NCBI GenBank assembly: GCA_019059635.1
Contig: JAGVRJ010000009.1
Location: 839,001-903,000 of the forward strand
Direction of reading: 5' to 3'
Length of the DNA stretch: 64,000 nt
DNA from: Proales similis
Taxonomy: Eukaryota; Rotifera; Eurotatoria; Ploima; Proalidae
A program made the translations under genes and the position numbers. Positions 7,224 through 64,000 of this stretch are shown here, one piece after another. Within the stretch, counting starts at the first letter, position 1. Every line of letters starts with the position of its first letter. A model generated the notes under the pieces. It did not search any database, was not told the DNA's origin, and saw only the letters and a list, made by a program, of their open reading frames with translations.

Positions 7224-8342
7224 ATGAACAACTCCAGCTACATTGGCTTCGACGACTCTGGCTTTGACACTGGTCAGCAGTCAGAACCGTTTGTGCAACG
7301 AGACAATCTATTCGCGTTGATTGTCATCGCTCTAATTTCAATAATCGTAATCAGCCATTTGATTGCGATCATCTACATTATTTTGTGTAAAAAATACCGT
7401 CAAGCTCCGACCTATCACTTGTTGCTTCATTTTTTCATTTTCAAACTTTGTTTCTGCGTGCTCGAGTTGGTTAACATATTCTCGTCGAGGCCAATGCGCG
7501 ATTCAGCATTCTATCTAATGCCCACCGACACCTGGTGCTTCAAATCCCGCTTCGGCACATTTCTTTTCGAAATGAGCAACAACTTCCAACTGCTTCTCAT
7601 CTGGCTGGTGCTGCTTTCGCAGCGAGGCATCATCGGCTTTGAATGTCTCTACTATGACCATGAACTACGCCAGTTACAATCAAGAGGAGTGTCTACTGAC
7701 AGCATGACCGAAGCCGAGGCGGGCATCATGCGCCTGAGCAACAAGTCGATCCGGAGCAGGATTCTTCTCAACAGTCGATCCATGACCTTGTTCACCTTTT
7801 ACATTTTGGTGTTTTTGATTGCGTTCATTCCACATATGGCGTTGGGCGCTTCGGCGATGGGCTGCAGCATTCATGGCTACTTATCGTTTCTCTACTTTAT
7901 AATGAACGCCGCCTTCTTACTCTTTTTCGTGTTTCCCATATTCTACTGGATTCTGGCGCTCACCACTTTATTCTCAAAGTTTTTCGGCGGCTTCCGCGAT
8001 CCCATTCAGAATCGCCTCTCAAGCAAACAAATCTACCATCTCAAGTTTATCAAGATCGCCAGCGTCATGAACTTTGTCGAAGATTTCTTTCTTCATGTAA
8101 TCTCAACTCACGACTTTCAAATATCCTACAGCTTGTATGAGTTCAGTCGAATAACGGGCCTGGCACTCATTCTTCTCTCAATAATGCTATTCATACTCTA
8201 CGACGACGTGCTGGGCGAATTGAATCGTCGACTGAACTCGGGCGCCCAAAGCGATCAGGCGGTCAGCTACTCGGCGTTCAGAGACCGCGATGAAGATGAA
8301 GACGCCATTGTCTATAACGAGCTGGTTGCATCGACCGCATAA
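7224..8342 (+). CDS. Divergent seven-helix receptor-like protein 1 (single exon)
   Basis: Predicted plasma-membrane receptor of 372 residues with no intron. Seven hydrophobic spans fit residues ~30-56, 62-87, 112-133, 187-208, 221-250, 274-294 and 306-326, with an N-glycosylation-type NNSS near the N-terminus. Class-A GPCR hallmarks are partly kept: Cys105 just before helix 3 and Cys214 in the second extracellular loop could form the usual disulfide. At the DRY position helix 3 ends in SQR (132-134). An FGG-x-x-DP motif follows helix 5 (254-260), and YEFSRITG opens helix 7. Helix 2 has an acidic residue (E in ELVN). The same landmarks recur in the three other single-exon genes here, so they form one family. 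AATAAA at 8369-8374 is a likely poly(A) signal. Ligand unknown. I do not recognise the subfamily. Confidence 0.85.
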   Translation: MNNSSYIGFDDSGFDTGQQSEPFVQRDNLFALIVIALISIIVISHLIAIIYIILCKKYRQAPTYHLLLHFFIFKLCFCVLELVNIFSSRPMRDSAFYLMPTDTWCFKSRFGTFLFEMSNNFQLLLIWLVLLSQRGIIGFECLYYDHELRQLQSRGVSTDSMTEAEAGIMRLSNKSIRSRILLNSRSMTLFTFYILVFLIAFIPHMALGASAMGCSIHGYLSFLYFIMNAAFLLFFVFPIFYWILALTTLFSKFFGGFRDPIQNRLSSKQIYHLKFIKIASVMNFVEDFFLHVISTHDFQISYSLYEFSRITGLALILLSIMLFILYDDVLGELNRRLNSGAQSDQAVSYSAFRDRDEDEDAIVYNELVASTA

Positions 8343-8962
8343 AAGCCTAATTTATTTGATGAGTCTAAAATAAAATTGACCGAATCCCGAGAGTTGTAAG
8401 CCATGCGCGCTGGTCAGGGTGTTTTATTCTTTTCGCGCTCTAACTAAAAGCTGCCCGGGGCCGAAACCTCCAGCTGGTTGAGAGGCGTAGGCCATTCGTT
8501 GAATATCATTCGCAAGCTCGATTTAGAGCGTTTGCAGTCCGATATGAGTTGAATTAAGGAGCGAGGGGTGGGGAGGGTGAGGCAATCATTGTTAGATAGG
8601 AAGACTCTTCGTTTAGACTTTATTCTCTCATCAATCAAGCAAGGATTGGAGCGGAGAGAAAATAAGAAAAAAGAAAAGTTGAGATAAAGCAAAACTCATC
8701 GTCAAATGCGCACTTTCTTTCAGACTTCACACAAGCACCAGCACACGGATGACATAGATGGACAAATGAAATGAATTTTAATTAAAAACATCGCCGCCTC
8801 TCTTTCTCTCTCTTTTTGTTCACCAGCTATCTCAAAAGAGGCGATTGTTCAGTTTCATTTTGTTTCAAATATTCTAAAGTCAAGCTGTTGCTTTCCTTAC
8901 GCCAATCGGAGCAAGATAAAAAGAGGAAAAAGAGAACTAGAAGCGAGAGAATTCTGTTTAAA
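8343..8962. other. Spacer between receptor-like genes 1 and 2
   Basis: Holds the 3' UTR of receptor-like gene 1 and the 5' region of gene 2. The frame of gene 2 is open back to 8816, but I start it at 8963 because that is where similarity in length to its paralogues begins. Nothing else is visible. Confidence 0.5.
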
Positions 8963-9994
8963 ATGCCCAAGTTAAAAAGCATCAAAATTGACGATGACTC
9001 GTTCGACGGCTCTCCGGAAACTTTTCTCGAAGAGAACAGAATAGAATGGAATTGGGCCGAGAATTCTCTCATGCTCATTCTGATCGCAATAATCCTATTT
9101 TGCGTCTTGGCAATCTCATTTATTCTCGTTCATCTGATCAGACAAAAGAAATTATTCTCCAACATACTTCACTTTCTTTTGGCCCAGTTCTTCGCCTTCA
9201 AGCTATTGTTCAGCTTGTTTGAATCGGCCAACATTGTTACATCGACCGCACTTCACAAGTCATGGTTCTACTTTGAGCCGGCCAAACTGTCCTGCTTTGT
9301 CCTACGCTATTCTGTATCTTCAATTGAAACGTTTCAAGTGTTTTCGCTCTTACTCATCTGGCTCTATTTGTACAGTAGCCGGCACTTGCTCAATTTGGAC
9401 CCTCTATGGCAAGGCTTCAGCTCCACTGTCGCTAATTCGTCATTCGTTGCTCGCAAGGCTCTCATTTGCATTTGCGCCCTCTTTTACGTCTCTGTGCTGG
9501 GCGTGAATGTGGCAATTTACTGGCAGACAACATACTCGGAATATTTCAACGCTTGTGCATTCACGGTCAGCTACCGGTACTTGATAGCCGGCGCCTTGTT
9601 CGTATTTTACCTGCCCACCTTATACCTTGGACTATTTGGCTCGACGCTGTTTTACAGTTATTTTGGGGGCTGGCTAGATCCTCTACGTGGCGAGCTAAGC
9701 TCTCAAGAGCGACGCCTAATATTCTTGGTCAAAGTGATGACTCTGCTCAAGTGCGTCGAGAAGCTCATGTTTAGATTTTTGTCCTCGCACGACTTTCACT
9801 ATTCAAGGACACAGTACGAACTGTTCAGAATCGCTGGCTTCAGCACAGTAGCCTTATCCGCGGTTGCCTATCTTCTCTTGGAAGTCTGGAACGGCCTCTT
9901 GCCAAGCTCTTATCTAGTTTCGCTCAGCTATCGCAACGATCGCGAGAACCTTATCAGCGGGGGCAAGCCTGACGACAACATCGCCTCAGTTTGA
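8963..9994 (+). CDS. Divergent seven-helix receptor-like protein 2 (single exon)
   Basis: 343-residue paralogue of the gene at 7224. I chose the ATG at 8963 (MPKLKSIKIDDDSF); an upstream in-frame ATG at 8816 would add 49 basic residues that no paralogue has. Seven hydrophobic spans are visible. Landmarks: acidic residue in helix 2 (FESAN), Cys111 before helix 3, SSR (138-140) where paralogues have SQR, Cys198 in extracellular loop 2, FGG-x-x-DP after helix 5, HDFHYS before helix 7 (HDFQIS in gene 1), and YELFRIAG at helix 7. It is closer to gene 1 than to the other two. AATAAA at 10071-10076 is a likely poly(A) signal. Same strand and orientation as its paralogues, which suggests tandem duplication. 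Function is inferred from topology only. Confidence 0.83.
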   Translation: MPKLKSIKIDDDSFDGSPETFLEENRIEWNWAENSLMLILIAIILFCVLAISFILVHLIRQKKLFSNILHFLLAQFFAFKLLFSLFESANIVTSTALHKSWFYFEPAKLSCFVLRYSVSSIETFQVFSLLLIWLYLYSSRHLLNLDPLWQGFSSTVANSSFVARKALICICALFYVSVLGVNVAIYWQTTYSEYFNACAFTVSYRYLIAGALFVFYLPTLYLGLFGSTLFYSYFGGWLDPLRGELSSQERRLIFLVKVMTLLKCVEKLMFRFLSSHDFHYSRTQYELFRIAGFSTVALSAVAYLLLEVWNGLLPSSYLVSLSYRNDRENLISGGKPDDNIASV

Positions 9995-10335
9995 TCAACA
10001 GACAATTTTAATCGAATGCTATATGCTTTTATTAGAATAAGTTGTCGCAGACTGAATCAGACTGAATAAGAATAAATTCTCTCCAAGCTTATTTTTCCCA
10101 ATCGCTATGTTAAATATAGAAGGAATGAAAACAAAATTTGAAGAAGATGAAGGGAACGCTCGCCTCTCAAGATGTTGCTTTTAAGCCGGCTAATGGAGCC
10201 TCCGCTATTTACTTTTGAATTTTTACTTTTTGCTAATTTTCACGGTGCAGGTTAGGTGGCTGTTTGTTTGATTTAAATAAGAGTTTAAAATAGATTCAAG
10301 CTTTTTTTAAGAAAATATGTTTGATAATGGCTGGA

Positions 10336-13300
10336 TCACATCAGGTTGACATTGTTTTTCTCTAGCAATCCAAAATCATTCTCGTCACCGACTCTTTTCT
10401 GGTGGTCTTGCTTAAGAACTTCGACGAACTTTTCACGCTCTTGGAAATTGTTTGCTTGAATGTTCTTTGCCACAGCGAGCTTAGACCTCTCGTTGAGCGG
10501 CTCCTGGTGAGCATATGGCGACTCTTTAGTTCCATGCAACAATAGAGTCCATTCAAGCAAATCACCGGTGGTCAATTCATCATCACTGTCATTCTCGAAC
10601 AGGACCTCGAGCTTCCATTCGCCCGCTGCTCTCTCGCCCCATGCGTGTGTGGTCATAAATGGCCACTTGTTGAATCCATGCTCTGAGTCAGTGTCCAAAG
10701 GACGCTTGCTCAGCAAAAGCGATTTGGTGCCAAGTGGCGAAGTCAAGTACATTATTGTGTTGCCTCGCCTGCTTGTTTTCAGACTGATGAAAGCCTGAAC
10801 GTGTTCGAGAAATTTGACTTCATTCGGCTGACCAGCGCACGAATCTGTCTCGATTTTCAGAGTCAAATTGCCACGCGGCGGGATCGGGCTATTGAATTGT
10901 TCGTTCAGAGTCAGAGACGCATTTTGCTGAAAAAAGAACAATTTACTCACTGCTGTCTCTTGATGCTGCCAGCCTCGCAGTGAGATCGGGCAGGAAGTGG
11001 TTTCCACACGAGCGCCGTACGAACCATCTCACCAGCATCGAGGACACCATAGCCGAATAGATGGTTGAATTCTAGGCCGGCGCCGTTGATCTTCCATAAA
11101 TGCTTGCCGTTCGGATCGTAGAGCTGGTTTCGTTTGGCTGTCAGGACAGTCAAATGCTGAAGGTCACGCCATGTCAGATTTTTGTTTGCCTCAAGAGTAA
11201 GAGCAAACACACCGGCTGCCTCGGGCGCCGCAGCTGAGGTGCCTGAGTGACGTAGGGTGCATTGGCCGTAGAGGTCAGTGGTAGCAACTCCAGCCTCTGG
11301 ATCGGAAGATCGTCCATTGCTGAACGTAGAGGCTAGTGTCGACGAGCAGGACTCATCATAGAGGGCGGTTCTGCCGTCGTTTATTGCTGAATTGATTGAA
11401 ATCGTCCACATACTGGCCGCGTAGCCGTCACAGTTACAGTCGTCATTATCGCCGCCGTCGCCTGAAGCCCAAACATAAATGCTGCCCAGCCCATTGCGTC
11501 CCTCGTTTATTCCACGCACCAGAGCTCTCATGGTCGCATGTCTTGGACCGTCAACCGTCTTGCCATCATCGGTCGGACCCCACGAGGCACTGTATATGTC
11601 GATCTTGTTCGGCTCATGGCCCATTGAGTTGGCCTCGATCAAATCAGTCATGTACGGCTGGTCAAGCATTCTCAATCCGGCTATTTTGGAGCCATACGCA
11701 ACGCCGACGCCACAGATGTTATTGTCGCGTGCTGCGGCGATTTCGCCTGCACAGCGGGTACCATGACTGATGCACACACGAAATTACTAGAAATTATCTA
11801 AAATCCAGATGTTCAAGTGCTTACTCACCTATTGAACCAGTCGTCGGTGTATCGTGGGTATGGAAATGGATCATTGCTGCTGAAATCGTAGCTGGCCTCG
11901 TGGTTCTTGATAACACATGGGCAAGATTAGCGATAAGAAAAAGCAGAGTGCAATGTTCTCGATGCTTACAAAGTTGTTCATGAGATCTGGATGAGTGTAG
12001 TCAACACCGTCATCCATGATGGCTGTGGTCACATTTTTGCCCGTAAATCCCATTGCCCAGGCCTCTTCAACGTTCAAGTCTAGCTTTGGCTTGCCACTTG
12101 CCTGACCGGTATTGCGCTAGGCAGTTGACACAAAACAATCAAGAAAAAAATCAAGTGGGCTGAGGGCAAAGAACATCACTTACCAAGTACCATTGATGCT
12201 TGAAGTATGGATCCTGCGGTGGCTGGTAGCTCGGATATTTCTTCTGAAGTTCTTCTACAGAGCGATAGCCCCTTTTGACGCGCCTGTAGCCATACTGCTG
12301 TTCAATATGCCTGACGCTCTCCTCCTTGGCAAGTATGCTTTTGTGAACCGAGGTGTCTCGTCTTGTGCGCAAGTGAGGGCTTCGCTTGTGCACGAAATGA
12401 TAGTGCCTCTTTGAAGCTAGGACCTGAAATGAACCAATTTATTATTTAGGATACAAGTTCCATGAGCCGGGGGTGGAATTTAAGGGTGGGCGTTGTCGAT
12501 GTGATGTGCGCATACAGACTGGTTTCAATTAGAGGGGCCAGCAAGTTGATAGGATGCTCAAGAATTGAAAACATTTAACGCAGTATTGCGTATTTAGTTG
12601 AGCAAAAATCAAAAGAGAAATATAAAAGTGGCGTAAAATTTCAAATAGAGTAAATAGACACCCAAAAAGAGACAATGTATAGACTTGTGGCCCAAATACT
12701 CGAATCGAACGAGACCGTCCGGATCAGACGAGATTTGTCTGATCTGACTGTGTATGGTACTATGGAGACCGCAATTTTGATCCTAGTCACAATTCTATTC
12801 TTCATGAACCTGCTCTTTCAATCGGCGATTATCTATCATTTGATAAAAACAGGCAAGTTCCAGCAGTCGGTAATCTACGAGCTCTTGCTAGTTCTCATGC
12901 TCAACTTCATGCCCTATTCAATATCTGAATATGTGTCAATGTTCGAGGGCTCTCTCATTCAGTTGGCGGCCAACGTTTGGAAAGCAAGTGATGCAATGTG
13001 CCAGATTCAATACTTTTTCGTGTTTACCACCAGCATAGTGGAGCTCATGGTCCTCATGATTTTATGGCTGGTGCTACTTTCTCAGAGAAATTTGGCTAAA
13101 TTCAATTTTCTTATGGCCGACTTTGACCCGTCGAACACACCGATGCCGATCGGCATGGCCAATCCGATAGTCGCCTCGCCGGATTCCAATGTGTCTGCAG
13201 TTCTAAGCCGCAGGTCAGTCTTCAACGTTCGTCGCATTATCATGGTTTGCTGGGCCTCGTTACTGCTTATTCCGAGCATTATAATTGCCACACACGCTCA

Positions 13301-14080
13301 TGTGTTCGACTACATGACTCATCCCGCTTGCTACATAGAGCTGACTGGCTCGTCCGGATTCATGCTTTTCACTCTCTCGTTCTTGGGCACATGCGCAATG
13401 CCCATGATCTACTGGATCCTGTGCTTCTCAACTCTTCTCGGCCCTATGTTCGGCGGCTCTTTGGACCCGACAGGCTCACAACTAGATCAAAATCAAAAGC
13501 GAATTCTAATCTACATTAAAGTGGCGTCAGTTCTAATCGTCTTTGACGACATCTTGGTGCATCTTAACATAGCAGGTCGCTATCAGGAAGATGCTATATT
13601 ATTCGAGATGGCCAAGCTCGCCGGCTTCGTGGGCATATTTTTCGTCTCGGCGCTTCTTTTCCTTGTCTTGGGCATACACAAGGATCTTTTGTGGCTGCCC
13701 ATAAGAACAAGAGCCAGAGGCTAGACAGAATTTTTCGAAGCTTTTCGAATTGCAGATGTAACGTAATTCAATGTAGAATAAAAGTGACTGATAGACCCTT
13801 TGACTTTTCAATGCGCCAAGAAGAAGAGAAGTGAACAAAGAATACGGGGAAGAGATAGATGCTCGGGATGGCGTATAGAAATTTGACTTACCGGACCGAT
13901 GTTGGCGAAACCATTTCGGGCAGCGATTTCGTCGGCCAGCTGGCGCTCAACGTCGTGCCCGAATTCGACCAGATATGAGTTGGTGAGGATCTTATTGCAT
14001 TTTATGCTCGCAATTCCAAACACAATTAAGAAGAATATGATTTCAAGTCCATTAAATCCCCGAATGTTCGAGAGATTCAT
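10336..14080 (-). CDS. PCSK2: Proprotein convertase 2 (subtilisin-like prohormone convertase)
   Basis: Ca2+-dependent serine protease that cuts prohormones and neuropeptide precursors at dibasic sites in dense-core vesicles. Exons: 13892-14080, 12184-12423, 11970-12116, 11829-11905, 10951-11766 and 10336-10888; 673 residues, all phases consistent. In order: signal peptide with hydrophobic core (residues ~12-26), inhibitory prodomain ending at RVKR (about 111-114), catalytic domain with Asp178 (IMDDG), His219 (SHGTRC) and Ser395 (HSGTSAAAPEA), then a P domain. The oxyanion-hole residue is Asp321 (ASGDGG). This Asp, in place of the Asn of other convertases, is diagnostic of PC2, so the enzyme probably needs the 7B2 chaperone. 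The last intron (62 bases, 10889-10950) was placed by gap-free alignment with human PC2. Intron 1 (12424-13891) contains a complete gene on the opposite strand. Invertebrate orthologues are egl-3 and amontillado. Confidence 0.96.
12621..12628 (+). promoter_or_regulatory. TATA box of the nested receptor-like gene
   Basis: TATAAAAG lies 54 bases upstream of the ATG at 12675, inside PCSK2 intron 1. A start about 30 bases downstream would leave a leader of only ~25 bases. This suggests the nested gene has its own core promoter. Confidence 0.55.
12675..13724 (+). CDS. Divergent seven-helix receptor-like protein 3, nested in PCSK2 intron 1
   Basis: 349-residue single-exon paralogue of the genes at 7224, 8963 and 15729. 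It lies entirely within the first coding intron of PCSK2 and is transcribed the opposite way. Landmarks: acidic residue in helix 2 (SEYVS), Cys109 before helix 3, SQR at 136-138 in the DRY position, Cys219 in loop 2, FGG-x-x-DP after helix 5, and FEMAKLAGF opening helix 7. NET near residue 12 is a possible glycosylation site. AATAAA at 13777-13782 gives it a poly(A) signal still inside the host intron, so with the TATA box at 12621 it is a complete transcription unit. The third intracellular stretch carries RRSVFNVRR, basic as in G-protein-coupling loops. Ligand and coupling are unknown. Confidence 0.86.
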   Translation: MYRLVAQILESNETVRIRRDLSDLTVYGTMETAILILVTILFFMNLLFQSAIIYHLIKTGKFQQSVIYELLLVLMLNFMPYSISEYVSMFEGSLIQLAANVWKASDAMCQIQYFFVFTTSIVELMVLMILWLVLLSQRNLAKFNFLMADFDPSNTPMPIGMANPIVASPDSNVSAVLSRRSVFNVRRIIMVCWASLLLIPSIIIATHAHVFDYMTHPACYIELTGSSGFMLFTLSFLGTCAMPMIYWILCFSTLLGPMFGGSLDPTGSQLDQNQKRILIYIKVASVLIVFDDILVHLNIAGRYQEDAILFEMAKLAGFVGIFFVSALLFLVLGIHKDLLWLPIRTRARG

Positions 14081-15728
14081 ATTCTCTAAAGCAAAGGTTT
14101 AGGCGATAAGAGAATAAAAGAGATAAAATGCCTTCAGATTTGAGCTAAGCTTGCCCATAGGCTTGCAAGACAAACGCAGCCAGAGTGCTTCTACTTCCTT
14201 TGGTCTGAAAAGATGAAAAACGCAATTTCTTCTCAATAGCGAAGCGGGCCGCAAAAACAAGAATTGCTGCGATGGCTTCAGCGGCACTGAGCTGATGTTG
14301 GGTTATAATCTCATGTCCCTGAGGAAACGCTCGAATGATATGCTCGCCAATGAGGTAGAAGGATTAGCTAGATGTGGCATAATGCTCTTGCGACGTTCAA
14401 TTAGTCGATGATAAACCTTGCACGGTGAAATGCATAGACAGAAAATGGTCATAAGCGCCTATACATAACGCTTGAAAAGCAGAATAAATTGCAAAAATAT
14501 CGATTTTTGCCGATTTTAGAGATGGCTGCGACATTCGCTAATTCATTTGCTGCTTCCGATCCGATTTCATATTCATAATTGAAAGTTGGGCGTTCGCTTT
14601 CAGTCAGGGCATAGCCTTGTCTTTATTGTCGCCGTCATTTGCGATACGGTCCGCCCTCTTCATATCCATTTGTTTTATTAATACTTGGCGCCGTCGCTGC
14701 CGTCACTCGACACCAATCCACACAGCTTTGCTGGCGTGTTTCGATTATGCTCTTGGACGCAACCAGAAATTATTATGCTAAGTTGCTCAGTTTCCGCTAT
14801 TTGTCCCGTTTTTCGTTTCATTTCATAAAGTCTGCGAATCATTTGTTGTCATGCATGCCGGAATGGCTGCGTTTAAGCCAAGATTCAAGAGACAAAGAAC
14901 CAGAAGAAGAAGAAGATGGCTTCCGTATTGAAATCTCATTAAACATCGAGATTCAGACCGGTTGCGGCAACGCTTACGCAAGCAACTAAAAGCGTGCGAT
15001 TTGCTTAATTTTCATCAACGGTCGTAAGCAAAATATTTCCAAGGACTCTGCACGACATTTTTCCTGACAAGCTGTCGTGTAAAGAGCGGAAATAAGCAGA
15101 AATTTTTCGTTTTAATTCAGCTGACGTGCCTCAAGGGCACTCGATTAATTGGGACCAATAGAAACGAATTGACTTTGTTGAAAGATTAGACAAGCGAGCT
15201 AATTTCTTGTTCTTGTTCAGAAAACTAATCTCTTGAATTATATGACGATTTAAATGGTAATTTGACCAAGAAAACTCTCTTGAGCTAAGGGGGAGCTGAT
15301 TTTCGGAGATTTATGAAAATAGAAGCCCTGAACAGTTGATTTTGATTGTCATTTGATTGTCATTTCCAAGTCAGAAAATAGAGGAAAACGAAGACTTTTG
15401 CCGTTTGTCTGGATCCAATTTTAATCGAAACCTGAAAATGCCCGTTTATCTCCTTGAAATTCGGTTTCCTACTCCTCCTCCTCCTTCGGCGGCTCGCTTT
15501 TCTTCACTCTTGATTTTTTACAGTCCTCATCTCATTCACAGATGTTTTCAATTAGTGTCTGATATATGAAATTTCGGCGTCAAAAATAACCGTTCGTACC
15601 GGAAAAATTAAAATAGAAGCGCAACGGTCCTAAATTGGGTTGAGAGACTCTGTTCAAAATAGCGCCATTGCTTCTTGTTGATTCAGAGAGAGAGACAGGT
15701 AGAAAGTTTTTAGTATTTACTGTGCCCA
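14081..15728. other. Spacer between PCSK2 and receptor-like gene 4
   Basis: Should contain the PCSK2 promoter (minus strand) and the promoter of the gene at 15729 (plus strand), a divergent arrangement. I saw no clear TATA box for either. A 116-codon open frame at 14639 lacks an ATG start and any domain, so I do not annotate it. Confidence 0.5.
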
Positions 15729-16700
15729 ATGGATTACCGTCAACTGCCCACCGACAATACAGCAGGAAACTTTTTCGCGATAACGATTATAGGCGTCGAG
15801 GCCCTAACTCTGCTATCGCTTGCCTTTTCGATATTTTCAATTCTGCTCAATCGCAAGAACAAAAAGTCAGCCGTCTACGAGCTTTTGATTTATTTGTTTG
15901 CCAACAGCATTCTCCGAAGTTTCTTTGACACAGTCAATCTATTCGGCAATGACAAGTTCATCTCGTCGCTCTTTCATTTATCAACATCAAAGTCGTTCTG
16001 TCGTTTCGAAGTCGGCCAGCGGCTATTTTACGGAATAATGGAATTTTTCATTCTAACCACGATATGGCTGTGCATGATTTCGCAAAGAAAACTGGCTCCG
16101 TTTAAATTTCTCTTCTCTGACTACGAGTCAGGCTTGCTGTCAATGAGAAATCCGGTGGCCAATTCAAATGAGGAACTGGCCAACTCGACTCAAGAGCTCT
16201 ACACGCCGTACACGAACAGTCCGTTGCTGAACAAGCGGCGAGTTTTTCTCCTCTTCTCTTCCGTGGGATTTTTGGCCGTTTCTACAATTTATGGAATGAT
16301 AACCGGTGGACCCGATTTGTTCGAAGGCAGATGCACTTTGGCCGCAGCTCCGGCTGGACCTAAAAGCGCCGCTATCATGATTGTCATTTCACTCTTAATA
16401 TTTTTTTCCTTCGCTTTTCTCGGCTCGTTCAGTGTTGCAATGAGCACATTCTTCTACAAAACGTTTGGCGGCGAATTAGACCCGGCAAGAGAGTCGCTCA
16501 GTATCGAGGACAAGAGTCTTTGCAAACTGATCAAGTTCATCAGTCTAATAACTGTGTTCAGCGAGCTGTTTACCGGCATTGGTTGGGTATTCTCGCGCGC
16601 ATTCAGCACTAATTTGTATGAGTTTATTGAGCTGATCGGCTTCGTTTGTCAACTTGTCAACCCGATACTTTACATTCTTCATGAGCGCAAAGGAATCTAG
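15729..16700 (+). CDS. Divergent seven-helix receptor-like protein 4 (single exon)
   Basis: 323 residues, no intron, the shortest of the four paralogues. Landmarks: acidic residue in helix 2 (FDTVN), Cys91 before helix 3, SQR at 118-120, Cys202 in loop 2, FGG-x-x-DP after helix 5, YEFIELIGF opening helix 7. Its last helix ends NPILY (residues 311-315), which is the class-A GPCR NPxxY motif, and it has almost no cytoplasmic tail after that. This is the best single piece of evidence that the whole family descends from rhodopsin-type receptors, since the other three have lost NPxxY. AATAAA at 16792-16797 is a likely poly(A) signal. No TATA box was found near the start. Confidence 0.85.
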   Translation: MDYRQLPTDNTAGNFFAITIIGVEALTLLSLAFSIFSILLNRKNKKSAVYELLIYLFANSILRSFFDTVNLFGNDKFISSLFHLSTSKSFCRFEVGQRLFYGIMEFFILTTIWLCMISQRKLAPFKFLFSDYESGLLSMRNPVANSNEELANSTQELYTPYTNSPLLNKRRVFLLFSSVGFLAVSTIYGMITGGPDLFEGRCTLAAAPAGPKSAAIMIVISLLIFFSFAFLGSFSVAMSTFFYKTFGGELDPARESLSIEDKSLCKLIKFISLITVFSELFTGIGWVFSRAFSTNLYEFIELIGFVCQLVNPILYILHERKGI

Positions 16701-35399: not shown

Positions 35400-36740
35400 T
35401 CATTTTAGATCACTGCCGAGACTTCCAGGTGGAAGACAAGCTTCAGAGGTAGAAGGCCGAGCGGCCTTGTGCATCTCGATCTCCTTTTCAACTTGCTCTC
35501 GAGCAGTGCTACTGAGGTATCTGGCTATTTTGCATAGTTTGTTTTCTGATCGCTCCTTGGCAACGATGCCTTTTAGAAAAGGCTCATCCTCACCCACTGC
35601 TCTCTTAGTCACTTCTATTAGCTGGTCGATGTCGAGTTTGGATAGCGATTCTCGACTGCTGTTTTCTTTAAATCGGAACCAGAGATACTTTTCGTACTCT
35701 TGTTTGCTGGCGGCCACTCGCTTGAGATGCTCGGCGAGAGCATCGACCGTCTCAAAGTCGTATACGTTGATGAAGGAGCCACGTGGCAGGAAGCGCAGGT
35801 AGTCGGGCTTGCCGTCGCGGCCGGCCACGATCGGCACCGAGCCGCTGGCGATCGCATGCACCAGCTTCTCGGTCACATAGTCCTCGCAGTTCGAGTTCTC
35901 GATGGCCAAGACGAACTTGTATCGCGAGTAGAGATCAATGTTGCCTGCCATTCTCTGGCTAGTATGCGAATTTTTATTCTTTAAGCATTGTCCAAATGAG
36001 TCGATTGGAATGCGTTTCATCAACTTTTCCACCAGTTTTTCGCGGCCGTTGTGTGCATGGCAGTTGGATAAAATCCAAGATATCGGCGCAGAAGTTTCTT
36101 TGTCTTCAAAGCGAACCTTAGGACGAGCTAGCATATCCGGCAAGTAGCCCATTAAGTCAAAGTAAGTCGCAGGCTCGGGAAAGGACTTGTCCAGGTGGTA
36201 CCACATTTTGAAATCAGCGTGAGTCCAAGTAGTTCCTCCCGAAGAATGTGGCTCAGATTCCATTGCGTAGACCATGTGATAGTGTGGACTTTGTCCAGAA
36301 CTCCCGTGGTCATAAACAGGCACCATATTCAGGAAATAGCTGAAATCCGCTTCTCTGGAGCCAGGCTTGACTATTTCTACTTCTAATCCATTTCGGCATT
36401 TGGTCACACCTCGATTGACGCTTGCCATGCCGTTTCCGTCAACTGCATAAAATCTTGTTTTCGCACCCGGCGGTATTTCTGACTGCGCTGGTCTTTTCAA
36501 TTCAATCGGCTCATCAGGTTTTTTGTCCTTGCCTGGCTCTTCGGCCATTTGAAGCCGCACACGTTCAGGCGATTGAGCATCAAACTGAATCAAATCGATT
36601 TCTGATACGATTCGATTGTTTACGGTGTTTGTATGATTTTCACTTCTTGAGGCACCCATCAAGACCAGGTAAATCGAACAGATGGCCAACAAGAGCAAAA
36701 GAATCGAAATTCTCCTGCGCCTCGAGGACAGGAATTTCAT
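35400..36740 (-). CDS. Alpha-1,3-fucosyltransferase A (GT10), single exon
   Basis: 446-residue Golgi type II enzyme that should transfer fucose from GDP-fucose onto glycans. Short basic cytoplasmic tail (MKFLSSRRRR), a membrane anchor (residues ~11-30), a variable stem with NHT glycosylation site, then the catalytic domain. The GT10 signature is clear: YKFVLAIENSNCEDYVTEK, followed by VPIVAGRDG and SFINVYDF. The N-terminal half of the catalytic domain is divergent but keeps DFKMWYHLDKSFPEPATYFD. Bases 35676-35939, which encode the GDP-fucose site, are identical to 39864-40127 in fucosyltransferase C, while flanks differ strongly. Start is the ATG at 36740. The acceptor substrate cannot be told from sequence. 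Confidence 0.9.
   Translation of the reverse strand: MKFLSSRRRRISILLLLLAICSIYLVLMGASRSENHTNTVNNRIVSEIDLIQFDAQSPERVRLQMAEEPGKDKKPDEPIELKRPAQSEIPPGAKTRFYAVDGNGMASVNRGVTKCRNGLEVEIVKPGSREADFSYFLNMVPVYDHGSSGQSPHYHMVYAMESEPHSSGGTTWTHADFKMWYHLDKSFPEPATYFDLMGYLPDMLARPKVRFEDKETSAPISWILSNCHAHNGREKLVEKLMKRIPIDSFGQCLKNKNSHTSQRMAGNIDLYSRYKFVLAIENSNCEDYVTEKLVHAIASGSVPIVAGRDGKPDYLRFLPRGSFINVYDFETVDALAEHLKRVAASKQEYEKYLWFRFKENSSRESLSKLDIDQLIEVTKRAVGEDEPFLKGIVAKERSENKLCKIARYLSSTAREQVEKEIEMHKAARPSTSEACLPPGSLGSDLK
35676..35939. repeat. 264-base identical block shared by fucosyltransferases A and C (copy 1)
   Basis: Read side by side, these bases equal 39864-40127 with no difference; divergence starts abruptly on both sides. 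The block is also richer in G+C than its flanks. It encodes 88 residues of the catalytic core. Best explained by recent gene conversion. Confidence 0.88.
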
Positions 36741-38263
36741 ATCAGTCGAACTGGTCTCGGTGTATGCACAAGTCTAGACAAGCAAATTCAAGCGTCCTCT
36801 TCTCACCCTCGTCTCGGTGTGTTCCTTTTTATGATGATTTCACAAATTTATGCTACCATAGTTACTGACCGCTAAATATAATAGAATAGACGTTTGACGA
36901 GCCGTGAATGCGTGGCGTTCTAAATTCGAATCAAAAGATATTCATATCAACTAGTTGAATGTTCAAGAACCTAACTAGTAAAATAACTTCAGCTTCAACA
37001 ATTGTGCTAATCGGGGACAGGTCTTAGAAACCAGCGGCAAGCAGCGAAATTTATGTTTAATTAGAAAAAAGTGTGTTTTAGCAAAACAGAGCGAGAAAAG
37101 TCTGGGTAGCTAAAAAACGATGAGAAAGAGCAAAAAAAGAAAAAATCAAATTAAAAAACTAAAGCCGATTTGATTGAGGCGAGAAAAGTCTGGGTAGCTA
37201 AAAAACGATGAGAAAGAGCAAAAAAAGAAAAAATCAAATTAAAAAACTAAAGCCGATTTGATTGAGGCGAGAAACGCGAGCTAACGAAATTTTCATAAAT
37301 TATTTGTCACCCGTGTTTCAACAGGCCTCAAACGAGATAAACCGACACAGCCGAAATTATGCTCAGGCTTTTACATTCACCTCTTTGTTGAAAATAAAGT
37401 AAAATAAAGCCGAAAAACAAAAAAGCCATTGAACGTCAACGTGTATCTTGGCAATAATCACGCAGCTCACGTTCGCCGGTCGATTGGTCAGCCGCTTTAA
37501 TCAGATGCGTTCTCGAACAGTACTATGCAAATACAATTGGAATTCAATTCGCTTTATCGCCCATTTAGCTTCAGGACAATTCATGCGGTTGCTCTTACCT
37601 GAACTGGTTGGGGTCAATTATTTTTTAGAGGCTCGATTTTACACCGATTCTAATCGGATCGTCTGTCTCGCGCTGCCAATGCCCGACCGGCTTTTGTGAG
37701 ACCGAGCGGCGTTGGCGAACGTTGGCCCAATTTCCTTTATTTATGATGGAAAATATTCCCCCCAAGCTAAATGAAGCATTAGATGAATTAGCTAAAAAAT
37801 TGCAAATTAACATGGATTGCAAAGAAGGAAAGAAGCAAGCCGAGCGGTTGTTAACATCTAGGTTATTAATTAAGATCATTCAGAAATCCATGTCCCAATG
37901 GACTTGAAATGAGCAGTTGATCGACATGGAACTGTGCTCAAATGAGCAGTAAATGAGAGGCGCATGAAAAAAATTTGATTTTTACTCATCGCTCACTTGA
38001 TACTGGTTTCAAATACTCGACTATTTCGTAACCTGTTTGGGAAATTTGATCTAGATAGTATGGGAGAAATAGAAGCCTTGAACTCTGGTTGGGTTTGCCG
38101 GAGTCGAATTCTTGAAGGAGTTCTAGTCGATTCTAGTTGTCGATCTAGGTCCTGTGCCTTACTTTCATCCACTCGAATTGGCCATGACGAAAGCAAAGCA
38201 AGAGTAGAAACTGCAGAGAAGAGTAAGAAACATTTAGTTACATAGGACCTCTTCAAAGACAGA
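36741..38263. other. Spacer between divergent fucosyltransferases A and B
   Basis: Promoter region for both genes. Contains the 88-base tandem duplication at 37091-37276. A 61-codon ATG frame at 37722 has a helical, charged product but no recognisable domain, so it is not annotated. Confidence 0.5.
37091..37276. repeat. 88-base tandem duplication (two copies plus stub)
   Basis: The unit starting GCGAGAAAAGTCTGGGTAGC at 37091 repeats without visible change at 37179, and a third partial copy starts at 37267 (GCGAGAAAC). It is A-rich and non-coding. Perfect identity means it is recent or conserved by homogenisation. Confidence 0.88.
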
Positions 38264-39581: not shown

Positions 39582-40850
39582 TCAATTAAGTGTAAAGTCG
39601 AGCGCCAAATTTGATCGACCGAGACAAGCCTGCTTCGCATCAGGCCTTTTAGATCTGTGAGCTTTTATTTCGGCTTCGATTACTTCGATTGTATTGCTTG
39701 ATAAATAGCGCGCTAGTTTGCATAGTTTGTTCTCTGACTTTTCCCTGTCAACTAATTTCGACATGAAAAGCTGGTCTGGGCCCATAACTTGCTTGGTGAG
39801 CGCAATTAACTGGGAGAGCTCTAACGATTTGAGGTAGTCACTGGTATAATTGTGATTCATTTTGAACCAGAGATACTTTTCGTACTCTTGTTTGCTGGCG
39901 GCCACTCGCTTGAGATGCTCGGCGAGAGCATCGACCGTCTCAAAGTCGTATACGTTGATGAAGGAGCCACGTGGCAGGAAGCGCAGGTAGTCGGGCTTGC
40001 CGTCGCGGCCGGCCACGATCGGCACCGAGCCGCTGGCGATCGCATGCACCAGCTTCTCGGTCACATAGTCCTCGCAGTTCGAGTTCTCGATGGCCAAGAC
40101 GAACTTGTATCGCGAGTAGAGATCAATATTGCCTCTCATATGCTCTTCCGGGTGACTGTTCTTGTTACGCAGACACTGACCGAAAGAGTCAACACCGATT
40201 TTTGCCATCAAGGCCTCAATGTATTTCTGCCTGCCGTTGTATGCGTTGCAGTTTGAAACCACCCAGACAACAGGTGCTGAACTGGTCTTTTGCTGGAATG
40301 AAACGGTCGGCGGCGATAAAAGGCCGGCCAGATGCATTTTAATGTCAAAATATGTGGCCGGCTCTGGAAAAGACTTGTCGAGATTGTACCACATTTTGAA
40401 ATCGGCTTTGTCCCACGAATCACCGCCGTGTGAATGCACTTCTGATTCAAGTGTGAACACCATTGAATACGTTCGCTTTGTTCGCTCGATTTGACTTGAT
40501 GGCACGCTCATGTGGAAATAGGCTATGTCGGCGTTTTTAAGTCTACTGGCAGATCCGGTGACTTCAACTTCGCTCGAATCAGCGCATTTGACAACGCCCG
40601 AATTTACTGAGCCAAAGCCTCCGCCGTCAAACGCAATATAGCGTCTCGGCTCTCGCTTCGACGTTCTGCTTGCCGTAGTGTTTGTTGTTTGCTCGTTTCG
40701 GAGAGGCTCAATCTGCTTCACTTGGTCGGCCGAAATCTTTGCTAACTGTTCATCGTCTCTGGTCTGTGGTGAACTGAATAAAATCAAAACAATTATAAAT
40801 ATGAAAACTCCGGTCAAAATAGGCTTCCTGTGGCGCCAATAGATGGCCAT
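39582..40850 (-). CDS. Alpha-1,3-fucosyltransferase C (GT10), single exon
   Basis: 422-residue type II Golgi enzyme, paralogue of A. Membrane anchor at residues ~11-28 (LTGVFIFIIVLILFSS), glycosylation site NTT in the stem, DFKMWYNLDKSFPEPATYFD in the N-terminal lobe, and the GT10 donor motif YKFVLAIENSNCEDYVTEK. Bases 39864-40127 are identical to gene A, whereas the rest of the two proteins shares only part of its residues. The C-terminal part (ENKLCKLARYLSS) also resembles A (ENKLCKIARYLSS) but differs in DNA. Start ATG at 40850. With A and B it forms a three-gene cluster, two on minus around one on plus. Confidence 0.9.
   Translation of the reverse strand: MAIYWRHRKPILTGVFIFIIVLILFSSPQTRDDEQLAKISADQVKQIEPLRNEQTTNTTASRTSKREPRRYIAFDGGGFGSVNSGVVKCADSSEVEVTGSASRLKNADIAYFHMSVPSSQIERTKRTYSMVFTLESEVHSHGGDSWDKADFKMWYNLDKSFPEPATYFDIKMHLAGLLSPPTVSFQQKTSSAPVVWVVSNCNAYNGRQKYIEALMAKIGVDSFGQCLRNKNSHPEEHMRGNIDLYSRYKFVLAIENSNCEDYVTEKLVHAIASGSVPIVAGRDGKPDYLRFLPRGSFINVYDFETVDALAEHLKRVAASKQEYEKYLWFKMNHNYTSDYLKSLELSQLIALTKQVMGPDQLFMSKLVDREKSENKLCKLARYLSSNTIEVIEAEIKAHRSKRPDAKQACLGRSNLALDFTLN
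39864..40127. repeat. 264-base identical block shared by fucosyltransferases A and C (copy 2)
   Basis: Partner of 35676-35939; see there. The first difference at the right edge is ATG versus ATA (35940 against 40128). Confidence 0.88.
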
Positions 40851-43190
40851 TTTTAAACTGGTCTAATGGAAAATACTCGGCTCAATGTTGACGATGGACT
40901 TCATCTAAAAGCGATTTGCAATTTTAAATTGAATTATTTGCGACTACAATTGAATCTTGAACACTGAGCTGATGTGGCGCAGAATAGTTACACAGAGCTT
41001 GCAGTGCCAGATGCAGCCGCCAATCTCGCAAATATGGTCACTGCGCTCACTTCTTGTAAATCGAAAGAAATGAGCGCGATCGGGGGCGACCATGCTCATA
41101 ATGATAATGAGCGGCTTCAAGAACAATTTAAAATGCCAACCATAAGAAGTGTTGAGTGTGCGAATAAATATTCATTGATGCGCTCAATTAATAGAAGAAT
41201 AGAAAATGCGAACAAAAAAAAACGAACAGAGAAAGAGAGATGATGCAAAAGACGGCCGGTGAAGGTTCATTATTGATTTTCTGCCCGCCCGTATCACATA
41301 ATCACCCGGATGAGAATTGAATGCGTTTGATCGAATGGGAGGCTTAATTTGGCCAATGGCGCCTTAAGCGAATATGTATAAGCTTGCGCGCTCATTCACT
41401 TCATCAATCATCTCGCTGCGTGGCTTGTTCTCTTCGAGGCCCTGTTTGCTCGGCTAACCAAGATGCACTTAATTTTCTCGAAATGCTCATTGCAATTGCC
41501 GCTTGGGCCGCACGCCGCCCATTTGATTCGATTTCGATCTAATCATCGATGCGACCGAACAAGTGGCAGCCTTCTAGTGCAAGACCAAACTTAAATCGAA
41601 TGGGCATTGCATAACTTGAAGAGAGCCAATTGAATGAAAGCTGCCGTTTCGAGATAAGACGGCAGTTTATGCGAGATATCTGATTGAACATAAAAATTGA
41701 TCATTTTTCAAGCAACAGTCTTATTTTACTCGGCTTCTGCTCTCTGCACGCTTGAACAGCATTCAGCTTGCCTGTGCTTACGTCTGCTAATGCCTCCCTC
41801 TAATAAGTAGGCTCCACAACACACCAACACGTACGTCCATGTATTGCTCTTGTCTAATGAAATTGAGCGCTTCAATTCATAATCTGCGAATCCTGCTACC
41901 AGGCGAAAACATCCAAATTTCTGGAAAAATTTCTTATCCTGACGGACTGAGAGTCAATGAGCTACTGATTAGAGTTGCGTGACTCTCGATATTGAGTGGA
42001 GAATTTGCCTATTTTAATTCTTGCTTCTTTAATTTGGATTCGACTCGGAGTCGAGTCGATCGTCAAACTCGATCTGTTGAGGGCAGAATATTTCTTTTTT
42101 CTTTTTTTGATTGAAATTCATAATTCTGATTAATGAAGCAAGAATAATAATTGAGAGAGTCCAAGTGAAATAGAGGATCGAGACCAGCAAGTGGACGCAG
42201 ACAGTCGCATGAAACCAAAGAATCTGAGGGCAGCAATCAGAAATATGATTGACACGAGTGGATACTGGAACACACTCACAACACTCAAGGCGGATGTTTG
42301 CTTAATTAGGCCCCGCAGACGAGCCATTAAAAATCGCGGAGAGTAGATCGGCAATTCTCAATAATATATGCCGAGGATTAGGATAATAAAGATGTGGCCT
42401 GGGCAATTTGCTGTTTCTACCAGCACCAGGTTCATGTTTAGAAAAAAGTGAAGAATGAAAGAAATTTTCCTCAGAGCTATATGACGGTGGGGCTTCGAAT
42501 CCAAAGAAAACTCGAGTGTCACAAAATTCTGACCGCCTCTCTTGCCTCGTCGCGGCTGGGTCAGTGAAATTGAATTATGAATTGAGAAAAATGAAGAGAA
42601 AAAAAAACATTACAACCACACAAATGCATTTTAGGAAAAAAAGGAGATAGAGTGCCCTGCTTCGAATGCACGGCTGCTATTCGAGGTCAAGCAAGCAGGT
42701 CGAAAAGCGAGCCAAGCGAAGGTACATTGTGTGTGTATGTGTTTGTGTATGCGTGTCATTCAAAGGAAATTAAATTCAACCTGAACAAAGCCTGTAAAGT
42801 TTTTCAGAGGCCTTGTGCACTTAAACAGGCCATTGGCCGTGTATTATCCTTATCAACTTAAATCGCTTTGCTAGGCTCGTTTGCTCGAGTTGTTGGCAAA
42901 TAAGGCAATTTTGGACTTGTGCAAATTCGGCGCATGGTTGGCAAAATAATTTCTTTGCCAATTTTCTATTCAATGATTTTAAGCCCGGCCAACTTGTCCG
43001 CCCTTGGTCGCTTTGTTTGCCTCAATCTCGCGTTACAATCAATCTAATCTCTTCATTCAAATGTAAATTAACGCCACCCTGCCTCATGCCAGCCTAATAT
43101 CGATCACATTAAACTCAATACAAATGAAAACAAAACGCCATAAAAAGCATTTATTGGCCACACGCACACACACACACACAAATGTATAAA
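40851..43190. other. Spacer between fucosyltransferase C and anoctamin A
   Basis: No supportable gene in 2.3 kb. A CA run lies at about 43161-43182 just beyond the anoctamin A stop codon. The frame at 40974-41243 starts with GTG, not ATG, and has no domain. Confidence 0.5.
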
Positions 43191-52026: not shown

Positions 52027-55000
52027 TCAAGTAGATAGCTCAGCAATAGCTGGAGTTGCAACAAGAGCCCTTCGAGGTCTTTCCAGGTCATACGAGCGAC
52101 GCATGCCTCTCGAGTCGGGAAGATTTAAAAATTCTTTTTGACGAGCTGCGCAAGGATCCTCAGATGTTAATGTGAGTCTTCTAGATGAAGTTCTACTTAG
52201 CATCGACTGATCGAAGCGAACGCTTTTGTTTGCACTGAACTGACTAAGGGTTCGTCTCCTGTGTTCTGCTTCGTCGATCAGATCCATTTCCAAATAAAAC
52301 GAACTCGTAGCTGCATGCGAGTAGAACACAGACGGCGCCTGCGATAGTAGCGAGTTGTTTCGGTCTTCATAGTAGATCACTGGCCGATATGGACGAGAAC
52401 GATTGTTCGTTGGCCTCGAGCGACTCAACGCGAATACGAGCGGATAGAAATTAAAGAACAAAATGAAAATGCTCGTCAAATTGGATGCAATAAATATTGT
52501 GGCGATTTTGCCTAAAAATTTCGACTCGTGAAAAAGCAAAGTGGACAAGGCAAGCGCATTAGAACTGCAAAGCATGGCGTTTACCGAAGCGAAACTCTTC
52601 ATACTCCATTTGATTGACAAGCGCTCGTCCAAATGAGAACAATATCGAAACGATGCGCCCAGCGACAAGAACATTTCGGCCGAACTGATTAAAACAAAGG
52701 GATACAAAAAGAAATTAAAGCTGTCCAACTTCCACCTCAACCATGATGTAAAGGCAGCTGTGATGACAAAGACCTGTGCGACAGAGACCAGAACGCAAAC
52801 TGAAACAAGAACATCTCTGGTGACGAGAGGAGCCACAATCAAAATAAAAATTATTGCGAATACGAGATCTATGGTGAGCGAGCCAATAAGGTTCTTTTGG
52901 AGCAGAATCTCCTCGAGAAATGGACTTGTCCACCAAGCTGAGTTTGTATCGTATAGTTTGAGTATGCCAAGGCGCAGCCACAAGCTGCTCACTTGATCGT
53001 AGAGCTTTTTCTGCTGATTCAAATCTTCGGGCCGAATTGAAATATTTGTTTGAACGCGAATCAAATAGATCGACGGCTCGATTTCATCGTCGTAGAACAA
53101 AGGGCCGAAGTTGGGATTGAAAGCTCCTTGTAAATGCTGATCAAAGAAGGAGGCCGTGTCCATTTTGGAAATTGTCCAATATTTTATGCAAGAGAACGGA
53201 ATCTGGGACGGATAGGCACCACTGTCATTGTGAGAGCAAGCAGCCGAAAAGTTGAACGATAATGAAGACAAGTTTGGTTTTTGAATCCAAGGAAGCAGCT
53301 GGCTCTTGGCCACAAAGTCTTTTGGTTCAAAACGTACTGGATTCGGCTTGAAAATCCAGCGGTCTGAAACTTTCGGAAAGCACGAAGCAGCGAAAAGGCC
53401 AAGCTGTTGCTTAATTTCATTTAGAAACTCATCTTTTTGATTGAGGTAGTCCGGCTGGAGACGGTAGCAAAGTTTCGAAGCCCTATGAAACTGGTAATCG
53501 GGATGTGAGCTCATCAAGCGTTCAAAATTTTCCCTTAAATCCTCAAAGCGCTGAGGACTGAACCAGCTGCTTTTCAACGGTCGCAAGCCCCAAACGATGT
53601 AAAAATCAAAAAACTGCTGCTGCTCTGTCAAGACGTTCTGAATCGAACGAGAACTGGATTGGTTTGCTTGAGACGTTGTTTGCACAGTTGACGATAAGCC
53701 GATGCCAGGATAGTGCAGAAGAGAAAACAGACTGAGCAGGAAGAGTGAAAACGGAAGCAAAAGAATCAATTTGGTAAATTCGAAAAACAAGTTAGGAAAT
53801 TGTTCGAAGAAAATCTTTGACACAACGTGGCGGATGTCCACCCTCCAAAGCTTGATTTCAATCGAATAAGTCGTCCGGCTGAAAAGTTTAGACGAGAGAG
53901 AGACAAAGAAAAGATTGAAGGAACACGAGACGAACGCTTGAACGAGCAAGAAAGTCGAAGAGAAAAGCGCCATGTCAAGCGCCTGGTTAGTTCGATTAAA
54001 TGCGAACAAGAGCATTGAGATCGCTGACAGGCAGGTGGATGGGACTGCGAATGCGGTCGCCTGGTGCCAGCATGAGGCGATCATTTGGCGCAGATTTTCG
54101 GGAGAATGTCTGTCAGTTAACGTAACGGTCTCGGTCGCGACCTGTTTGGTGATTTTGAAGCTCCTCGACCAGAAAGCTGACACAGACATTGCGTGAGAGT
54201 GAGAGAAGAACAGAAATGCGAGAAAGTGCACTGGAAAATCGAATTTGTTCGACATGCAGGTGTAAATCAGCCATGCGATTGGCAATGACACGCACTGGGT
54301 AATGTAGGCGATGCAAAGCACAGAGATCGAAGGCACGTGCAAAGCGACGGCCAGAAAGGAGAAAAACAAAAATATTAAACCAAGTGCAACATATTTTAGC
54401 GGATTGGTCTCGTCACACTTGAGCTCGTTTTCCGCTGGGTCGTCGCTGAGCTTCATCTGAGCCAATGAAGTGAACTGAATGTGTTTAAAGCTGCTCAAGC
54501 AATCGCATGCAGCTCTGTGGAACCATTCAAAAATTTGACTTGGCTTGAATCGATTTTCGCCTAACCACACATTAACTCTCATTTTTAGGTTCATCTGCGA
54601 ACCATCTAGACTCAGCGGATGCAGATAATTGGCCAGCTTATAGAACTCGAGGCATTCATTGTCCAGATTGGCGACAAGTAGCCCATTGTAGCATCTCAAC
54701 AGCTCTTGACTAGTCGATTCATTTGCACTCAATCTGAGCTCATCTAAAACATTGGCTAAGCAGACAAATTATTCTGAATAACTGCTGCTTTCTGTTGATT
54801 TTCTATCGCCTACCAAGAGTGCAGGTTTTCACAAATAATTGCTGCTTGGATGCCAGGCCAGCTTTGGCGAGTTCATTTCTCAACTCGATATTGAAATTGT
54901 CGATAAACTGACTGTATCGCTCGATTGTAGCATGATCAAGACTCGATCCAAATGAGCGCAAATTTATATTGATTGTCAAGCTAGCGACCGATTCAACTAA

Positions 55001-63859: not shown

Positions 63860-64000
63860 CTTTTCTCCTTCTTTTAATTATTTTTCTATTTGTTTCAATT
63901 CCAATTCGATCCTCCAAATAGAGTCGCATTTTTATAGAGCCAATTTTAAATTGAATTTCCTACGAGCTAATTTAAAATTTTTGTCTATTTTCAGCGATAT
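63860..64000. other. Upstream region of the alveolin-like gene
   Basis: AT-rich, pyrimidine-rich on the plus strand just before the start codon. Nothing else visible before the window ends. Confidence 0.4.

Follow-up and report, generated by a model that had tools for sequence, protein, structure and literature searches.

PROF1, a flatworm family of seven-transmembrane proteins, is described as orphan, with an extracellular N-terminus and remnants of rhodopsin motifs; its members, apparently all intronless and numbering 19 and 47 in two species, show no significant similarity to known G protein-coupled receptors (GPCRs) (PMC3261222). The flatworm-specific rhodopsins (fwRhods) are described as receptors of the rhodopsin type that have diverged strongly and resemble nothing outside their phylum, selected for retaining ubiquitous rhodopsin motifs (PMC6114109). 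We compared these families with four neighbouring genes (genes 1–4) in a stretch of 64,000 nucleotides, hereafter the window (assembly GCA_019059635.1, contig JAGVRJ010000009.1, positions 839,001 to 903,000 of the forward strand). The source, Proales similis, is a tiny marine monogonont rotifer. Genes 1–4 look like an orphan branch of rhodopsin-type receptors and not like a new kind of molecule. We did not file them under a named class A subfamily because the defining motifs are mostly missing.

The nearest parallel is PROF1, as genes 1–4 are also single open frames with degenerate rhodopsin motifs and without a database family. However, PROF1 belongs to flatworms, and its 19 and 47 members stand against four in Proales similis. 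The published motif table gives D[R/K]C, DR[L/V], and D[R/S]C for helix 3 of PROF1, whereas the motif here is S-[Q/S/E]-R, and the FGG-x-x-DP of genes 1–4 is missing from that table (PMC3261222). With the fwRhods, genes 1–4 share the strong divergence, but they retain few of the ubiquitous motifs and are set apart from them by that description (PMC6114109). No description of such a family in rotifers was found in article texts, a scope which leaves aside supplements and Kim et al. 2021, whose title reports 401 GPCR genes in the Proales similis genome (doi 10.1016/j.cbd.2021.100861).

All four open reading frames (ORFs) listed by the original prediction, which had been made from the letters of the window, are present in the claimed span on one strand (Table 1). 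With gene 1 as query, tblastn found genes 2–4 in the window as homologues at E 4.5e-24 to 3.9e-19, and the pairwise identity among the four is 21.0–29.7%. A profile of genes 1–4 was then searched against metagenome proteins. Among the best 7995 candidates considered, four relatives were recovered (P0001–P0004), with an identity to gene 1 of 42–44% for P0001–P0003 and 31% for P0004. The family, which is known from Proales similis and from organisms sampled in metagenomes, is real, old, and small, with an odd helix 3. Genes 1–4 are probably paralogous orphan receptors of this family with a rhodopsin (class A-like) fold.

The FYMINK residue ratio is 2.55–2.90 in P0001–P0004 versus 1.68–2.02 in genes 1–4. 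As such a make-up fits AT-rich genomes and the other monogonont rotifers among the rows listed in a genome comparison have 25–31% GC, compared with 45.51% in Proales similis (PMC11954553), a rotifer origin of P0001–P0004 appears plausible from composition. A grouping of genes 1–4 together appeared in 0% of 200 bootstrap trees; therefore, the duplications probably predate the split between Proales similis and the source organisms of P0001–P0004. None of the branches in this tree clears both limits of support, and genes 3 and 4, which have long branches, are joined there. A recent expansion is ruled out by the pairwise identity of 21–30%, and an old duplication fits the tree, just as had been proposed. 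The genome-wide expansion that had been named as support, however, was not found. Protein searches of the genome (32,716,893 bases, 15 contigs) with gene 1, gene 4, and P0004 gave no further family locus at E 10 beyond genes 1–4, with a first-look filter that may miss distant members.

To represent class A receptors of the same genome, we used the 7tm_1 profile, which gave 162 matches with exons counted apart; none at genes 1–4 was among the matches listed. From these, 40 ORFs were picked by eye for coverage, taking the longest Met-to-stop frame per fetched stretch. They looked full length, and their strand agrees with that of the match in 40/40 cases. All of them are single open frames. Hence, genes 1–4 are intronless as far as each is one open frame, but this state is unremarkable in the genome.

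Genes 1–4 and P0001–P0004 were aligned in eight rows, and most of the motifs named in the original prediction were recovered. The Cys preceding helix 3 and the Cys in extracellular loop 2 are each present in 8/8 members, as is the FGG-x-x-DP of loop 3. In place of DRY, helix 3 ends with S-[Q/S/E]-R in all eight: SQR in genes 1, 3, and 4, SSR in gene 2, and SER in P0001–P0004. The acid in helix 2 (E81 in gene 1) and the [Y/F]E ahead of helix 7 (acid E306 in gene 1) are each found in 7/8 members, P0004 being the exception. The latter motif had been given as [Y/F]E-x4-G, but its spacing is really E-x5-G. NPxxY is retained by gene 4 only (NPILY, 1/8), as had been stated.

With the class A receptors of its genome, the family shares the predicted fold, the Cys pair, the helix-3 Arg, the helix-5 Pro (7/8, absent from gene 4), a Gly near 7.42, and an aromatic residue at the 7.53 place (8/8). 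It differs from them in being undetected by 7tm_1, in the invariant FGG-x-x-DP, and in lacking an acid at the aligned D2.50 place (none in 8/8 members). The spacing from Cys to Arg in helix 3 is 29 in 8/8 members versus 25 in 27/40 class A ORFs, the other 13 lying outside the [DE]R pattern used. In the alignment to class A, the four additional residues fall within helix 3 and amount to about one turn. No [D/E]R[Y/H] was found 25 residues past the Cys; the Arg is present in 8/8, preceded by Glu only in P0001–P0004 and by Gln or Ser in genes 1–4. W-x-P in helix 6 is also absent from 8/8 members. Motif loss by itself is unexceptional here because, with the same kind of pattern, [ND]PxxY occurs in only 12/40 class A ORFs and a CWxP-like motif in 7/40. 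The helix-2 acid sits about two turns further out than the aligned 2.50 place. In generic numbering, we take its position to be about 2.57–2.58 and that of the acid at the helix-7 mouth to be about 7.36.

The fold was predicted with AlphaFold for genes 1 and 4. Both models resemble class A GPCRs in their fold matches, and their seven helices are arranged as in class A, in line with the GPCR fold that had been expected. In gene 1, the helices span residues 24–54, 62–86, 102–133, 184–206, 221–250, 267–295, and 302–326, followed by helix 8 at 329–339. Kyte-Doolittle peaks gave seven helices in 5/8 members and six in 3/8.

A remote homology of the family to class A is supported, though not proven, by comparison of sequence profiles. 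Against the 40 class A ORFs, HHalign gave P 3.2e-5 and probability 72.6. A second class A profile of 31 rows omits a subgroup of nine ORFs that we designated, of which six come from a cluster on contig C15 and three are look-alikes from C1 and C2. Against these 31 ORFs, the values were P 6.8e-5 and probability 63.6, with 263 columns aligned from helix 1 through helix 7. In this alignment, C105 is paired with the helix-3 Cys, R134 with the Arg of DRY, C214 with the loop-2 Cys, the helix-5 Pro with the class A Pro, G312 with the helix-7 Gly, and S319-I320 with the NP of NPxxY. Reversed-profile controls were negative (probability 1.0 and 1.6). ELO proteins, seven-helix enzymes of the same genome, gave 0.1 versus the family and at most 2.2 versus class A. 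As a positive control, one class A subgroup versus the remaining class A reached 99.9. When the family was compared with half of the class A ORFs drawn at random, P was <1e-3 in 19/30 draws versus 0/30 when reversed.

Several results weigh against this assignment. None of the eight members matches any named family in Pfam, where PF00001 (7tm_1) is unlisted even at E 10, and no match was found among PDB sequences; the same absence bears out the statement that no named receptor family is involved. A plain hidden Markov model from the 40 class A ORFs scored at most 10.2 bits with the members. Used singly in HHalign against class A, gene 2 was the best of the eight (47.2), the other seven giving at most 13.5 and gene 3 only 0.2. 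Versus the nine left-out class A ORFs, which form one subgroup, the family gave 0.1. A class B relation also yielded a probability of 0.1, yet this control with three class B sequences is weak and excludes little, as class A itself reached only 0.7. The models have middling confidence, with a pLDDT (predicted local distance difference test) of 65.2 for gene 1 and 59.7 for gene 4 from 8-row alignments. Foldseek matches were weak (best E 3.0e-4 for gene 1 and 6.4e-4 for gene 4), and template modelling (TM) scores were 0.46/0.61 and 0.45/0.50, respectively. Moreover, a structure predictor may default to a common fold. The missing Pfam match, the middling confidence of the models, and the only moderate best match of a single member would also suit seven-helix membrane proteins unrelated to GPCRs, with models that are merely GPCR-like. 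We regard this as very unlikely. The proposed rhodopsin type is supported by the resemblance of the models and by the weak profile-profile link with its negative reversed controls, and the genome-wide expansion is not supported.

An insect-type gustatory receptor was also considered. It is excluded by the profile PF08395 (7tm_7), which has no match in the members and none over the cut-off genome-wide.

Conservation was compared between the two sides of the membrane in six of the eight rows, as P0002 and P0003 were dropped for being close to P0001. The region limits were taken from the helices of the gene 1 model and an assumed topology with the N-terminus outside. Mean pair identity is 31% in cytoplasmic columns (171) and 22% in extracellular columns (132; Mann-Whitney p 0.006), and 15 of the 19 invariant columns are cytoplasmic, two of the remaining four being the Cys pair. 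Among the paralogues, the outer side is variable and the inner (signalling) side conserved. The N-terminus is net-negative in 7/8 members, and loop 1 is basic in 8/8, both of which agree with the assumed topology. Sequons occur in the N-termini of gene 1, gene 3, and P0001–P0004, and none was found in those of genes 2 and 4.

A variable outer and a fixed inner half in tandem genes occur in chemoreceptors. Genes 1–4, being tandem and strongly diverged, could accordingly be chemosensory receptors for environmental cues such as food, mates, or water chemistry in sensory cells, as had been suggested. This is possible but on balance doubtful: just four copies were found in the genome, and gene 1 is kept at 42–44% identity in other organisms with end motifs in common. 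The class A cluster on C15 (G000:C15:143108-156715, minus strand, loci L044–L049) is also a likelier chemoreceptor expansion than genes 1–4. It comprises at least nine tandem 7tm_1 matches with scores of about 52–67 bits, and its six fetched ORFs encode 317–337 residues; it is likely a lineage-specific class A expansion.

Gene 1 has an acidic DDSGF stretch at the N-terminus and an acidic C-terminal tail ending AIVYNELV, and the motifs at its two ends are shared by P0001–P0004. In these five proteins, the C-terminus consists of an acidic stretch followed by Y-x-x-L-V and is kept down to 31% overall identity. Genes 2–4 do not have this tail. We liken it to a Y-x-x-Phi sorting signal, and it might be recognised by a clathrin adaptor for uptake. 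Decoy chemokine receptors are a precedent for uptake without G-protein signalling. The tail, together with the loss of D2.50, CWxP, mostly NPxxY, and, in genes 1–4, the DRY acid, would fit atypical receptors which internalise a bound ligand or scaffold partners without such signalling. We consider this unlikely, as the helix-3 Arg is kept in 8/8 members, conservation is highest in the cytoplasmic loops, and genes 2–4 are without the tail; the motif loss is, as noted, common among the class A ORFs.

We prefer ligand-gated class A-like receptors, which is the likely reading overall. Within it, an internal ligand, which we propose tentatively, is favoured over an environmental one, which is less probable still, given the small size of the family and the retention of gene 1 across organisms. 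Judged by sequence, the gene 1 relatives with their common end motifs are no less compatible with a conserved internal role than with a chemosensory one. The N-terminus would lie outside, with a Cys bond linking extracellular loop 2 to the upper end of helix 3. The ligand would be held in the outer half, where the paralogues are very different from one another, with the helix-2 acid and the acid at the helix-7 mouth as candidate contacts. The inner half, comprising S-x-R of helix 3, L-x-x-D of loop 2, and FGG-x-x-DP of loop 3, may bind one common partner, for which a heterotrimeric G protein is the likeliest candidate. The paralogues would, in this way, read different ligands via a single coupling partner.

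With D2.50, the DRY acid (Glu only in the relatives), CWxP, and NPxxY (in 7/8) gone and a longer helix 3, the switch should differ in detail from that of class A. It could even have been rebuilt on a retained rhodopsin fold: helix 3 would have gained a turn between the disulfide and the Arg, the Asp of the sodium site would be gone together with CWxP and mostly NPxxY, and FGG-x-x-DP, invariant even though genes 1–4 are only 21–30% identical overall, would have taken over the transducer contact. The signal would then pass from ligand to G protein by a path unlike that of known class A receptors. We hold such a rebuilding to be improbable, since losses of this kind are frequent in the remaining class A ORFs of the genome.

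As the standard 7tm_1 profile misses these receptors, too few GPCRs may have been counted in phyla that are little studied. The family is also a natural experiment on what class A receptors can do without: the Arg, the Cys pair, and the inner face have been kept, D2.50, CWxP, and mostly NPxxY have been lost, and an additional turn in helix 3 is tolerated. Rotifers gain an orphan receptor family, in which gene 1, being kept in other organisms, is a good first target for ligand finding.

Successive receptor genes are spaced by 620, 2680, and 2004 bp. The frame of gene 2 is opened by TTG at 8816, and its length is counted from the first ATG. The description as a tandem run holds for four neighbours on one strand, but the run is interrupted between genes 2 and 3 by a subtilase/P-domain gene on the opposite strand, consisting of the frames 10336-11028 and 10947-11783.

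Table 1 Receptor-like genes and the intervening gene, in window coordinates
Feature	Position	Strand	Length	Evidence
Gene 1, receptor-like	7224..8342	+	372 aa	ORF; structure model
Gene 2, receptor-like	8963..9994	+	343 aa (from first ATG)	ORF
Proprotein-convertase type gene (Peptidase_S8 + P_proprotein), outside receptor family	10336..11783	-		Domain matches
Gene 3, receptor-like	12675..13724	+	349 aa	ORF
Gene 4, receptor-like, NPILY	15729..16700	+	323 aa	ORF; structure model

Elsewhere in the window, two tandem GT10 fucosyltransferase genes lie on the minus strand at 35400-36773 and 39582-40862. In the C-terminal domain, they share 264 identical bases (35676-35939 and 39864-40127, minus strand), and the neighbouring 60-column blocks are 43–63% identical. 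The genome search returned only these two copies. The sharply bounded tract is gene-conversion-like or an assembly chimera.

Two long uninterrupted frames are also found on the minus strand. The first (52027-54768) encodes 913 residues with many hydrophobic segments; it has no Pfam match at 0.001 and is Patched-like by eye only. The second (61925-63877) encodes 650 residues, with a Pro/Val-rich middle that by eye appears repeat-like and a pair of EF-hands at the C-terminus.

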